Assembly (NCBI GenBank): GCA_003278195.1
Contig: QCGE01000007.1
Location: forward strand, 1-64,000
DNA: 64,000 bases
Source of the DNA: Prochlorococcus sp. AG-363-P08
GTDB taxonomy: Bacteria > Cyanobacteriota > Cyanobacteriia > PCC-6307 > Cyanobiaceae
Reading direction: 5' to 3'
In this document: positions 10,288 to 14,459 of the stretch, in pieces
Layout of the letters: every line of letters begins with the position of its first letter
How positions within the stretch are numbered: the first letter of the stretch is position 1
Translations under genes and position numbers: made by a program
Notes under the pieces: model-generated
Seen by the model: the letters and a program-made list of their open reading frames with translations, nothing else
The model's database searches: none
Told to the model about the DNA's origin: nothing

Positions 10288-11082
10288 TCAATCTCTATAC
10301 TGATGTCTAAGTTGTTTTTTTGCTAAATTACGTCGAATCTCTGTAGGGAGGTTTTGACTAAGATCAATCAACATTGCTTTACTATATTCTGAGCATATAG
10401 ATCCTATTGCTTGTAAGGCGAATTTTGAGGTGTTTTCAGAGCCTTTTTGGGCGATCTCACAAAGTAGATTACAAATATCTTCACTATCTCTACGTTGAAT
10501 TATTTTAATCGCAGTAATAACTACTTCTTCTCTTGGATCGTTTATAATTTCTGTACAAATGTCTATTAGCTCACTGTCGGAAAGTTGATGTGCCTTGAAA
10601 GCGAGCAGATCTAGTCCAGAAATGCGTATTTCTAAAGAATGTTCCTTTAAGATTCGACTAATCACTTTTTTAGAAATAGATCCACCCCAACAGCTAAGTG
10701 CTTTCAAGACTTCTAAATTAATTTCATTATTACTCTCAAGTTTACTAAGTAGCCAATCTCTAGCTTCTTTTTTTTGACATAAACCTGTAGCATAGATGAG
10801 TTCTTTTTTGTCGCCATATTTTTTTAATAGAAACTTGATTTCTTCCCAACCTTTGTCTTGATTTGTTCCTATTAGTGATACTAGAGTTTGTCGTAACTCC
10901 ACTGAAAGCTTTGGAGAATATATGTTACTTGCCCACTTGACATCTGGCTTTTTTGTCCCCATAGCATTAATTATTAGCCAGATCTCCTCTTCCTGCATTA
11001 CAATAGTTCTGTTACCAGCTTTTTCTCTTGGAAGTTTAACCTGACTTTTAGTAGCTAAAGCGTTTTGATTATTTTTGTTCAA
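10288..11082 (-). CDS. HEAT-repeat domain protein
   Basis: A 264-residue soluble helical protein whose second half has regularly spaced about 30-residue helix pairs, for example EIINDPREEVVITAIKIIQ and SKFALQAIGSICS, typical of HEAT or PBS-lyase-like repeats. Such proteins act as protein-protein scaffolds; some cyanobacterial relatives attach bilins to phycobiliproteins, but no lyase-specific motif or phycobiliprotein gene is nearby. No catalytic motif and no signal peptide are visible. The frame begins at a TTG at 11082; an internal ATG at 10995 (MQEEEIW) is a reasonable alternative start, giving 235 residues. Function unknown. Confidence 0.72.
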   Translation of the reverse strand: MNKNNQNALATKSQVKLPREKAGNRTIVMQEEEIWLIINAMGTKKPDVKWASNIYSPKLSVELRQTLVSLIGTNQDKGWEEIKFLLKKYGDKKELIYATGLCQKKEARDWLLSKLESNNEINLEVLKALSCWGGSISKKVISRILKEHSLEIRISGLDLLAFKAHQLSDSELIDICTEIINDPREEVVITAIKIIQRRDSEDICNLLCEIAQKGSENTSKFALQAIGSICSEYSKAMLIDLSQNLPTEIRRNLAKKQLRHQYRD

Positions 11083-11180: not shown

Positions 11181-11468
11181 ATGATTAAAAACACTAGTGC
11201 CTCACAAGCAGTCTCAGGGTCAATTAGCACATCTTTTCTCGATTCTAAAGAATCCCGGGTGAGAAATGATAGACAAACCGTTTTTTCTTTAACTAGAGAG
11301 TTAGTCCATGCACAGTTTGAGATTGCAGATCAGGAATTGACAAGACGTTTATGGCAAGAGGTTGCTGAGCGAAATCTAGATATAGATAGAATCATAAATC
11401 TTATGTATGGATCTACTTCCTATGATGATGAGGCGATGCTAATGGCTGATTTAGCATACCAAAACTGA
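11181..11468 (+). CDS. Conserved hypothetical protein, 95 aa
   Basis: A small soluble, acidic, mostly helical protein with no signal peptide or membrane segment. The first 30 residues are Ser/Thr-rich and likely disordered; the remainder (FSLTRELVHAQFEIADQEL and on to the end) looks like two or three amphipathic helices. I do not recognise a named domain, although it looks like a picocyanobacterium-specific conserved protein. It is transcribed divergently from the HEAT-repeat gene and convergently with focA. ATG start at 11181, with no strong Shine-Dalgarno sequence. Confidence 0.65.
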   Translation: MIKNTSASQAVSGSISTSFLDSKESRVRNDRQTVFSLTRELVHAQFEIADQELTRRLWQEVAERNLDIDRIINLMYGSTSYDDEAMLMADLAYQN

Positions 11469-11562: not shown

Positions 11563-12474
11563 TTAACGAGCACCTAGCTCAGCTGCAAGCTCTCGTTCAA
11601 GTTTTTCATCATGAACATTAGGTAGTACATTGCTCATCTTAGTTCTATGAGTTCCATAGAAGAGCATGCCTATAAATACCATTCCCCCAAGAATATTTCC
11701 TAATGTTACTGGGAGGAAGTTCCAAAATATTACCTTAACAAAAGGAACTCCGGACCCCAGTAATGGTCCTGCAGTATGAAGGAACATGTTAACTACTATG
11801 TGTTCCATTCCCATAGTTTGGAAAGCAGTTATTGGTAACCAGCATGCAAGAATTTTTCCAGGAACACTTTTGCTAACTAAAGCCATCGTTACGCCAAGAC
11901 ATACTAGCCAGTTTGCAATTACACCTCTTAAGAAAGCCAGAAAAAGACCTGTACTGCCTAACTCTTCATATTTAACTAGAACATTTGTTTTGTTTATAGC
12001 AATTATTTTAGCCGCAACTACTGCCCATCCTTTACCACCATCAACAGCACTCATCGGCTCAACAGTACCACCACTAGTTAGGCTTATAGATAATAGTAGA
12101 GCTACCAAAGCAGTCCCTAAAAAATTTCCAATCCATACCCACATCCAATTTCTAAATGTTGCCCTCCATGAGCTTTTTCCTGCCCATGTTGCCATAGGCA
12201 ATAAAGCAAAATTACCTGTAACAAGCTCCATTCCAAAAAGTACAATACTTGCAAATCCAAAAGGGAAGATTACAGATCCCAAAAAAGGCATTCCTGATTG
12301 AATTCCTACAGTTATTGCAAGGCAAGTTGCTAAACCAAGAATAGCTCCAGAATAAAAACCTCTTAATAAAAGATTTTTGATGCTAACAGTTGATTTCTTT
12401 CCTCCCGCTGTGATCATTCCATCAACTAATTCATTGGGCAGGACATAATCCATTTGCGAAGTGCTTGAGTTCAT
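11563..12474 (-). CDS. focA: Formate/nitrite transporter family protein, probable nitrite channel
   Basis: A 303-residue FNT-family membrane channel with about six transmembrane helices. Typical FNT features are FPFGFASIVLFGMELVTGNF in the first half and the broken-helix segment with NWLVCLGVTMA in the second. FNT proteins pass small monovalent anions such as nitrite, formate or bicarbonate. The genome context decides: it is the last gene of a run with nirA and a small ORF, so nitrite uptake is the likely role. It starts 22 bp after the small ORF on the same strand. It probably shares the NtcA-controlled transcript that begins upstream of nirA. Confidence 0.93.
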   Translation of the reverse strand: MNSSTSQMDYVLPNELVDGMITAGGKKSTVSIKNLLLRGFYSGAILGLATCLAITVGIQSGMPFLGSVIFPFGFASIVLFGMELVTGNFALLPMATWAGKSSWRATFRNWMWVWIGNFLGTALVALLLSISLTSGGTVEPMSAVDGGKGWAVVAAKIIAINKTNVLVKYEELGSTGLFLAFLRGVIANWLVCLGVTMALVSKSVPGKILACWLPITAFQTMGMEHIVVNMFLHTAGPLLGSGVPFVKVIFWNFLPVTLGNILGGMVFIGMLFYGTHRTKMSNVLPNVHDEKLERELAAELGAR

Positions 12475-12496: not shown

Positions 12497-12640
12497 TTAG
12501 TTGCTGATTCTGTTCATTAATTTAGAGAAGAAATCCTGTCCACCTCCTTCTCTATTAGTAGCTGGAAAATCTTTGCCTAATCTATTCATCAATGCAAATA
12601 GAGGAGATAAAAGGGTTTTAATGTTTCTGGTGGATTTCAT
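12497..12640 (-). CDS. Small ORF (47 aa) between nirA and focA
   Basis: An ATG at 12640 opens a 47-codon frame ending in TAA at 12497. The product starts MKSTRNIKTLLSPLF and ends FFSKLMNRISN; it is basic, with a possible N-terminal amphipathic helix, a Gly-rich stretch (REGGGQD) and a second helix. It lies 47 bp after nirA and 22 bp before focA on the same strand, so it fits exactly between the two. No Shine-Dalgarno sequence is visible, which is common in this group. I recognise no family. It could be a regulator or accessory protein of nitrite use, or a chance frame; conservation is not testable here. Confidence 0.5.
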   Translation of the reverse strand: MKSTRNIKTLLSPLFALMNRLGKDFPATNREGGGQDFFSKLMNRISN

Positions 12641-12687: not shown

Positions 12688-14322
12688 TTAGGAAGTATTA
12701 CTGCTTTTGATTGATAAGTTAAACATTTTAAATAATCTAGCTAAAGAGTTATGATTAATATTCGATTTTGATTCCCTAGGAATAGCTGCGTACTTTTCTA
12801 TCATTATCTCTTTAAGAACACTCTTAAGCTCCTCCACAGGTATTGCTTTGTGTTCCAATTGTCCTATTTTTCTGTTTTCTCCTTGAGAGCCTCCGATCGA
12901 TATGTCATATGCCTCGACTATTTCCCCATTTGCATTTTTAGCTTTTTTCCCTGTTAATCCTATTGCACCCATATATGCTTGCCCACAACTATTAGGACAA
13001 CCAGTCCAATGAACTTTTAATTCCTCAGGAAGAATGAGTTCTTTATCCAGTGCTTCAGCAATTTCTATAGCTTTGTCTTTAGTATTAGTAAGAGCAAAGC
13101 TACAATATGTATTTCCTGTACATGAGACTGTACCAGCAGAGATACTTTTAGGATGAATAGAGAATCTTTCCAATAAGGAATGTTTTTTAAATTCCTCTAA
13201 TCTTTCTGAATTTATGTTCACAATCAAAATATTTTGATCTTCAGTAAGTCTTATTTCACCATTACCGTACTCTTGACTTACTTCTGCGAAGTTCTGAATA
13301 TCCTCACCAGTTAATCTTCCTACTGGGATATGAATTCCAGCAAAATACTTCCCTTCTTGTTTTTGTTTGTGGACTCCTAGAAATGAGCGCGGATTTTTCG
13401 AAAAGATTGATCCAGGATCTTCTTCTAAATGACCAAATCTTTCTTCAACCAACTCTCTAAGCTTTTTAATACCTATCTCATTTATAAAAAATCTAAACCG
13501 CCCTTTCGGACGTTTATCTCTTTCACCATTGTCTCTCCATATTGATATTACATCACCCGTAATCTTGCATACATCTTTTTGCTCTACCCAAGCATTTAAT
13601 GGGATTGCATAATCATTTAATTGTGAAGACAGGATTCCACCTACCCATATAGAAAATCCCAGCTTTCCATCTTTTTTAACTGGATGAAAAACCATGTCAT
13701 TATGAAGTAAGAAGTTATCTTTAGAACCAGCAACGGCTGTATTCCACTTTCTAGGTAAATTTGAAAACTCTTGATTCCCAAGTCCATCTCTGGTTAAGTA
13801 TTTTTCTAATTCTTTAGTAAATAATCTTGTATCAATTATCTCTTCAGGATCAATCCCAGCAAGTGGATTACCTGTTACGTTTCTTGGGTTATCGAAACCG
13901 GATTGTATTGTGCTAATTTTAGCCTCATTTAGGCGTTTAAGTATTTCTGGTAGATCACTAATGAGAATCCCACGTAGTTGTAAATTTTGTCGAGTAGTGA
14001 TGTCGCAACTTCCATCTTCTCCATATCTAAAAACTATCGACGCGATAACTTTTAGTTGTTTGTTGTTAAGAATTCCATTGGGAACTCTCAAGCGAAGCAT
14101 GAATTTACCAGGAGTTTTTGGTCTCCAAAACATTCCATACCATTTTAATCTTAGTTCTAGGTCTACTTTATCCATATTTTCCCAGCCTTTTTCTGCATAA
14201 CTTTCCAATTCTCCTCCGACTTCCAGGCCATCTTTAGCAGCTTTATTTTTTTCAATCCTATTAAGCTTCTTTCCTGTTAGATAGGCCCTTGAACCTGAAT
14301 TTGATTTCATTTTTGTCTCCAT
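12688..14322 (-). CDS. nirA: Ferredoxin-nitrite reductase
   Basis: Reduces nitrite to ammonium with six electrons from photosynthetic ferredoxin. The 544-residue protein has the two sulfite/nitrite-reductase half-repeats. The siroheme-[4Fe-4S] ligands are Cys401, Cys407, Cys442 and Cys446 in SCTGNTYC and TGCPNSC. The siroheme-contact block TRQNLQLRG is near residue 110. Its length suits cyanobacterial NirA of the ferredoxin type. An ATG four codons in (14310, MKSNSGS) is an equally possible start. It is preceded by a perfect NtcA box and followed by the 47-aa ORF and focA. No nitrate reductase or molybdopterin gene is in the window, which suggests nitrite-only use. Confidence 0.96.
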   Translation of the reverse strand: METKMKSNSGSRAYLTGKKLNRIEKNKAAKDGLEVGGELESYAEKGWENMDKVDLELRLKWYGMFWRPKTPGKFMLRLRVPNGILNNKQLKVIASIVFRYGEDGSCDITTRQNLQLRGILISDLPEILKRLNEAKISTIQSGFDNPRNVTGNPLAGIDPEEIIDTRLFTKELEKYLTRDGLGNQEFSNLPRKWNTAVAGSKDNFLLHNDMVFHPVKKDGKLGFSIWVGGILSSQLNDYAIPLNAWVEQKDVCKITGDVISIWRDNGERDKRPKGRFRFFINEIGIKKLRELVEERFGHLEEDPGSIFSKNPRSFLGVHKQKQEGKYFAGIHIPVGRLTGEDIQNFAEVSQEYGNGEIRLTEDQNILIVNINSERLEEFKKHSLLERFSIHPKSISAGTVSCTGNTYCSFALTNTKDKAIEIAEALDKELILPEELKVHWTGCPNSCGQAYMGAIGLTGKKAKNANGEIVEAYDISIGGSQGENRKIGQLEHKAIPVEELKSVLKEIMIEKYAAIPRESKSNINHNSLARLFKMFNLSIKSSNTS

Positions 14323-14445: not shown

Positions 14446-14459
14446 GTAGCAATAATTAC
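14446..14459 (-). promoter_or_regulatory. NtcA binding site upstream of nirA
   Basis: GTA-N8-TAC (GTAGCAATAATTAC) matches the NtcA consensus exactly. It is centred at 14452.5, about 130 bp upstream of the nirA start codon. NtcA is the cyanobacterial global nitrogen activator and typically sits at -41.5; this placement predicts a start site near 14411. The hexamer at 14418-14423 on the minus strand, GTTAAT, then falls at -12 to -7 and matches four of six positions of TATAAT. Confidence 0.75.

Follow-up and report, generated by a model that had tools for sequence, protein, structure and literature searches.

The nitrite channel NitM of alpha-cyanobacteria, the FocA of this report, carries a C-terminal regulatory tail and is predicted to need an activating partner (PMC4390861). 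Full-length NitM of strains CC9311 and MIT9313 was inactive in S. elongatus and became active once the tail was removed, the naturally tail-less NitM of CC9605 was active in the same organism, and the authors inferred an unknown mechanism that activates NitM via the tail (PMC4390861). How the inhibited nitrite channel of oceanic cyanobacteria switches on was left open by Maeda et al. (2015; PMC4390861), and the accessible text of that study neither names nor assays a small ORF at the locus. The nearest described counterpart of the small gene analyzed here is SynWH7803_RSS12335 of strain WH7803, a 135-bp ORF for 44 amino acids with two predicted helices that lies between nirA and nitM, is cotranscribed with both, is strongly induced (on nitrate or N starvation), goes up 194- and 239-fold and resembles NirA of strains CB0101 and NATL2A (PMC9430850). 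In the accessible text of that paper the ORF is neither given a function nor assigned to a family, and it is not connected with the FocA tail. For MIT9313, an "uncharacterized gene" located between nirA and focA has been cited as co-expressed with both, in a paper that also describes a nitrite cassette of a cyanomyophage in which a small uncharacterized gene separates focA from nirA (PMC8115048). Elsewhere the cassette is given as focA, nirA and nirX, and the available portion of that paper mentions no intergenic ORF (PMC6370341). Apart from PMC9430850 and this mention in PMC8115048, we found no report on the small ORF in the open-licence literature. NirP1 is another small cyanobacterial protein connected with nitrite reductase and the handling of nitrite; it has 81 residues (mostly 76-86), four beta strands, a conserved Cys and three Trp (PMC10907346).

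The window examined here is a stretch of 64,000 nucleotides from Prochlorococcus sp. AG-363-P08. On its minus strand, an ATG-to-TAA frame for 47 amino acids (MKSTRNIKTLLSPLFALMNRLGKDFPATNREGGGQDFFSKLMNRISN) runs from 12640 to 12497, 47 bp after nirA and 22 bp before focA, and on the same strand as both; the initial annotation had placed it exactly so, and its coordinates were reproduced. In the plus strand over the same interval, stops interrupt the frame. Upstream, nirA (12688-14322, minus strand; 544 amino acids; NF007125, 828 bits, and Pfam) encodes the ferredoxin-nitrite reductase, and downstream, focA (11563-12474, minus strand; 303 amino acids; Pfam PF01226, 209 bits) encodes an FNT-family nitrite channel. 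The minus strand of the spacer showed neither promoter- nor terminator-like sites, and Rfam gave no match between 11000 and 15500 of the window. An NtcA-type consensus, GTAGCAATAATTAC, was matched by pattern at 14446-14459, 123 bp before the nirA start; sites of this type number 11 in the window against 6.35 expected by chance. NtcA control, as proposed in the initial annotation, is for the window copy no more than suggested, by this one consensus site. A HEAT-repeat gene (10288-11082, minus strand; Pfam HEAT_2) is the downstream neighbor of the cassette and is possibly the nirX or NirB of the literature. A further ORF of 95 amino acids on the plus strand (11181-11468) has no family match; homologues of it occur in 17 of the 104 small-ORF loci whose sequence reaches far enough downstream.

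Length is weak evidence that the small ORF is a gene: when the 213-bp nirA-focA spacer was shuffled 5000 times by mononucleotide, 105 of the shuffles gave a minus-strand ATG frame of at least 47 amino acids, and relatives were therefore needed to judge it. We searched 300 genomes of the family to which the window genome (1.58 Mb, 37 contigs) belongs, built a profile from the intergenic ORFs and inspected all 133 focA loci. A homologous ORF stands at the same place in 113 of these 133 loci, and the family evolves under purifying selection, with a dN/dS of 0.32 (378 synonymous changes over 1404 sites and 533 nonsynonymous over 5307, in 51 independent pairs). Changes in these pairs fall 259/194/458 on the three codon positions. 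Other frames give ratios of 1.19-1.37, except one antisense frame at 0.47, a shadow to be expected from codon structure. The window copy has no close relative (nearest pN 0.29, pS 0.62-0.83), and the ratio of 0.32 is a family-level figure. Because of this conserved placement and selection, we regard the ORF as almost certainly a coding gene; neither of the refuting outcomes named at the outset, lack of conservation in related loci or a neutral substitution pattern, was observed. The same frame was initially considered unrecognized, which does not stand: its orthologue in WH7803 has a locus tag and was published as strongly induced and cotranscribed (PMC9430850). In our genome set, G245, taken as WH7803, has a 135-bp ORF at the same place, and it aligns with the window ORF. 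The two agree in position between nirA and nitM, strand, homology and two predicted helices; they differ in that the WH7803 product has 44 residues and the window copy 47, with a diverged first motif. The orthologue is thus already in print as an uncharacterized ORF, and the family itself is named by no library that we searched: searches of Pfam, NCBIfam, PHROGs and the PDB sequences yielded no credible match, the best PHROG match (E 0.0073) having been obtained with a phage copy of the family.

The family consensus is MxxxxxxxDxFSRFVNWxSxxGxDxPxINRxxGxQDxFSKLMNRISG. An amphipathic motif, DxFSR[FL][VM]N[WR][IL]S, occurs in it twice, with a Gly-rich loop between the copies, and D36, S39, M42 and S46 are invariant across 54 aligned sequences. 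A profile of motif 2 detects motif 1 in 101 of the 113 ORFs (shuffle p<0.01), which shows that the two halves are the same motif. By alignment, motif 2 is intact in the window copy (residues 36-46, DFFSKLMNRIS; 12503-12535, minus strand), and motif 1 has diverged (residues 9-21; 12578-12616, minus strand), with A16-L17 in place of the family Asn-Trp. The window copy reaches 73.4 bits, and its relatives up to 99.4, with a profile that had included the window copy itself. AlphaFold2 predicts helices at residues 4-21 and 38-46 with modest confidence (mean pLDDT 67), in line with the initial description of two helices and a Gly-rich turn. Homology to NirP1 was our first lead and was rejected: with 47 residues, no Cys, no Trp and a predicted helical structure in a modest-confidence model, the window ORF differs from NirP1 in length, residues and fold, and NirP1 was not found in Prochlorococcus (PMC10907346).

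In the family, focA occurs in 133 of 300 genomes and nirA in 227 (E<=1e-100), with nirA but no focA in at least 94. The free small ORF lies 8-80 bp upstream of focA in all 113 loci that have it. Adjacent nirA genes whose product has no copy of the motif account for 84 of these loci, a further 24 combine the free ORF with another copy on the NirA C-terminus, and in 5 the ORF stands beside focA with nirA not adjacent. Three of the 133 loci carry the motif solely on the NirA tail. Neither a free nor a fused copy is present in 17, namely ten genomes of genus g9, G026, G056, G077, G215, G278, and G240 and G014, whose loci are cut by contig ends. A whole-genome profile search matched 117 of 300 genomes at E<=0.01; of these matches, 116 fall among the 133 genomes with focA, and a single one (G001, 74% complete) falls among the 167 that lack it. 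The small ORF is linked to focA more than to nirA. The initial proposal of an accessory or regulatory protein of nitrite uptake or reduction survives as the best reading, with the tie to be corrected toward focA. Three FocA positions separate genomes with and without the small ORF, which may reflect kinship. Among 388 genomes of the class, we found no credible member beyond the family; four class genomes outside it with E values of 0.002-0.009 were taken as chance matches.

The invariably short distance to focA could mean that the ORF is a leader that sets focA translation by coupling, its product being without a role. We consider this very improbable, since selection acts at the amino acid level, the motifs are conserved, and copies exist fused to NirA, free-standing far from focA, and in cyanophage. 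Alternatively, the product could be the picocyanobacterial counterpart of NirP1, a protein not found in Prochlorococcus that elsewhere among cyanobacteria binds nitrite reductase and tunes its activity (PMC10907346); the NirA tails would then be built-in versions of such a regulator. The motif that the small ORF and the NirA tails have in common, with its repeated changes on the tree (below), speaks for this. Against it, the domain follows focA, being nearly absent from focA-less genomes though at least 94 of them have nirA; the ORF remains by focA where nirA is not adjacent; and it decays together with the FocA tail. A NirA regulator is, in our judgment, unlikely.

A motif match at the NirA C-terminus (profile E<=0.01) was found at 27 of the 133 loci, with at least five changes on a FocA tree that is a quick tree with many open forks. 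Motif 1 was matched at shuffle p<0.01 by 34 of 62 NirA tails of at least 15 amino acids, about half of the 34 being near-identical rows of genus g56; the other 62 NirA examined have a short tail of 3-10 amino acids or, in four cases, were left uncut by the pattern. In the window, NirA extends 31 amino acids past its core (12691-12783, minus strand), with a weak likeness to motif 1 (shuffle p 0.18). In genus g56 the NirA tail reproduces the small protein almost exactly, and genomes differ in how many copies they carry: the fused copy is the only one in G214 and G283, and in G087 it is accompanied by two free ORFs that form a 203-bp tandem. This tandem repeat of G087, 700 bp before focA, accounts both for the extra copies of the small ORF and for its fusion to NirA. 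Motifs on NirA tails would explain the published likeness of the WH7803 ORF to NirA of CB0101 and NATL2A. In a low-confidence model of a fused NirA, the tail is unpacked and disordered (pLDDT 27-38); because it is disordered there, the tail probably binds elsewhere than on NirA itself, which again weighs against a NirA regulator. Such an arrangement would also suit a purely scaffolding role, in which the bivalent peptide links NirA, or oligomers of it, to FocA or to some other partner in the membrane and does not gate the channel. One motif occurs twice in a short, probably disordered chain, and single copies sit on NirA tails after flexible linkers. By itself a scaffold gives no account of why loss of the inhibitory FocA tail accompanies loss of the ORF, and we hold it to be about as unlikely as a NirA regulator.

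The tail of FocA provides the other line of evidence. In the window, it is a conserved charged segment (ending in HDEKLERELAAELGAR) at 11566-11628 on the minus strand, the proposed target of the small protein and the 63-nt stretch whose deletion activated the orthologues (PMC4390861). FocA matches extend to residue 303 in 130 of 133 genomes, with the tails of genus g56 and of locus L084 scored by eye and by the extent of the FocA match. Of the three exceptions, the FocA of G005 is cut by a contig end, and those of G215 and G278 are truly tail-less. Tails of FNT channels reportedly matter in E. coli as well. The domain is present in 115 of the 130 genomes with a FocA tail and in neither of the two tail-less ones, where the small ORF is absent and a decayed remnant lies in a spacer of normal size (223 bp). 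No other FocA in the family lacks the tail, and only those two loci hold a decayed small ORF (Fisher p about 0.016, computed by hand and ignoring kinship). Since G215 and G278 are near relatives, tail loss and ORF decay count as one event. G215, with its tail-less FocA, is probably strain CC9605, whose NitM is the naturally tail-less, active form (PMC4390861). Both tail and domain are absent from six FocA proteins of other families, which may indicate a single origin of both within the family. Thirteen genomes with a readable locus (G026, G056, G077 and the ten of genus g9) have a tailed FocA and neither a free nor a fused copy.

Taken with cotranscription and induction in WH7803 (PMC9430850) and tail inhibition of NitM (PMC4390861), these patterns suggest a mechanism to which we assign a probability of about one in three. 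A small cytoplasmic protein, with two amphipathic helices that each carry one 11-residue motif and a Gly-rich loop between them, would be produced from the nirA-small ORF-focA mRNA. It would contact the cytoplasmic face of the FocA pentamer through or near the charged C-terminal tail and relieve the inhibition that the tail exerts. The second motif and the related motif on many NirA tails may place nitrite reductase at the pore, so that nitrite would enter only where it can be reduced immediately. Several observations count against this mechanism: the 13 genomes with a tailed FocA and no copy, the restriction of joint tail and ORF loss to one lineage, a phage with a tailed focA and no copy (below), the missing Asn-Trp of motif 1 in the window copy, and the low confidence of the structure models.

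The motif could instead dock a third partner, such as the downstream HEAT-repeat protein, ferredoxin or the membrane. Peptide binding is common among HEAT proteins, the motifs are amphipathic, and the HEAT gene lies beside the cassette in 99 of the 104 small-ORF loci with sufficient sequence downstream. Five loci (L096, L097, L099, L141 and L145) have the ORF and focA with no HEAT gene near, and several others have the HEAT gene without the small ORF; we think a third partner quite unlikely.

A wider version of the FocA-activation reading is a rather doubtful proposition as a whole: the bivalent peptide would be the missing activator that acts on autoinhibited FocA via its tail and holds nitrite reductase at the pore; repeated copying would have placed its motif on NirA tails, in some cases in lieu of the free peptide, and the copy in a cyanophage would open or rewire host nitrite uptake. 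The small ORF is in any case a concrete, testable candidate for the NitM-activating factor. If it is that factor, it would explain how uptake of toxic nitrite is coupled to reduction, and it is relevant to the release of nitrite by Prochlorococcus and to its cross-feeding. The family, the motif copies on NirA tails, the cyanophage copy and the correlated loss with the FocA tail are new here.

The phage copy is a free-standing member of 48 amino acids with both motifs intact (L254:4001-4147, IMGVR_UViG_3300025118_000016, and L255), on a contig that also has psbA and a phage DNA polymerase; it would be a new kind of auxiliary metabolic gene. The stretches L256 and L257 are identical over 20144 bases, so the two contigs represent one phage. 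Among INPHARED phages, tblastn at E<=1 found no family member. A DNA pattern for motif 1 matched ten viral stretches, of which two were the known phage copy and eight, unrelated short frames, were set aside. Another phage contig (L268, IMGVR_UViG_3300026265_000014) resembles the published cyanomyophage cassette (PMC8115048), with a tailed focA, a gene in between and nirA; here the intervening gene is an ORF of 62 amino acids that lacks the motif, and no motif copy was found on the contig.

A second paralogue (MDFFSAF.NWFS..G.DLP...) occurs away from focA in three genomes: the window genome G000 (L002:1489-1605; G000:C9:65695-65802), G001 (L121:2994-3107) and G099 (L120:2999-3130). The copies of G000 and G099 are 69% identical, and those of G000 and G001 lie near the same secreted-protein gene. 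In G000, this paralogue has kept motif 1 and is cut short in motif 2, the opposite of what is seen in the focA-linked copy of the window.
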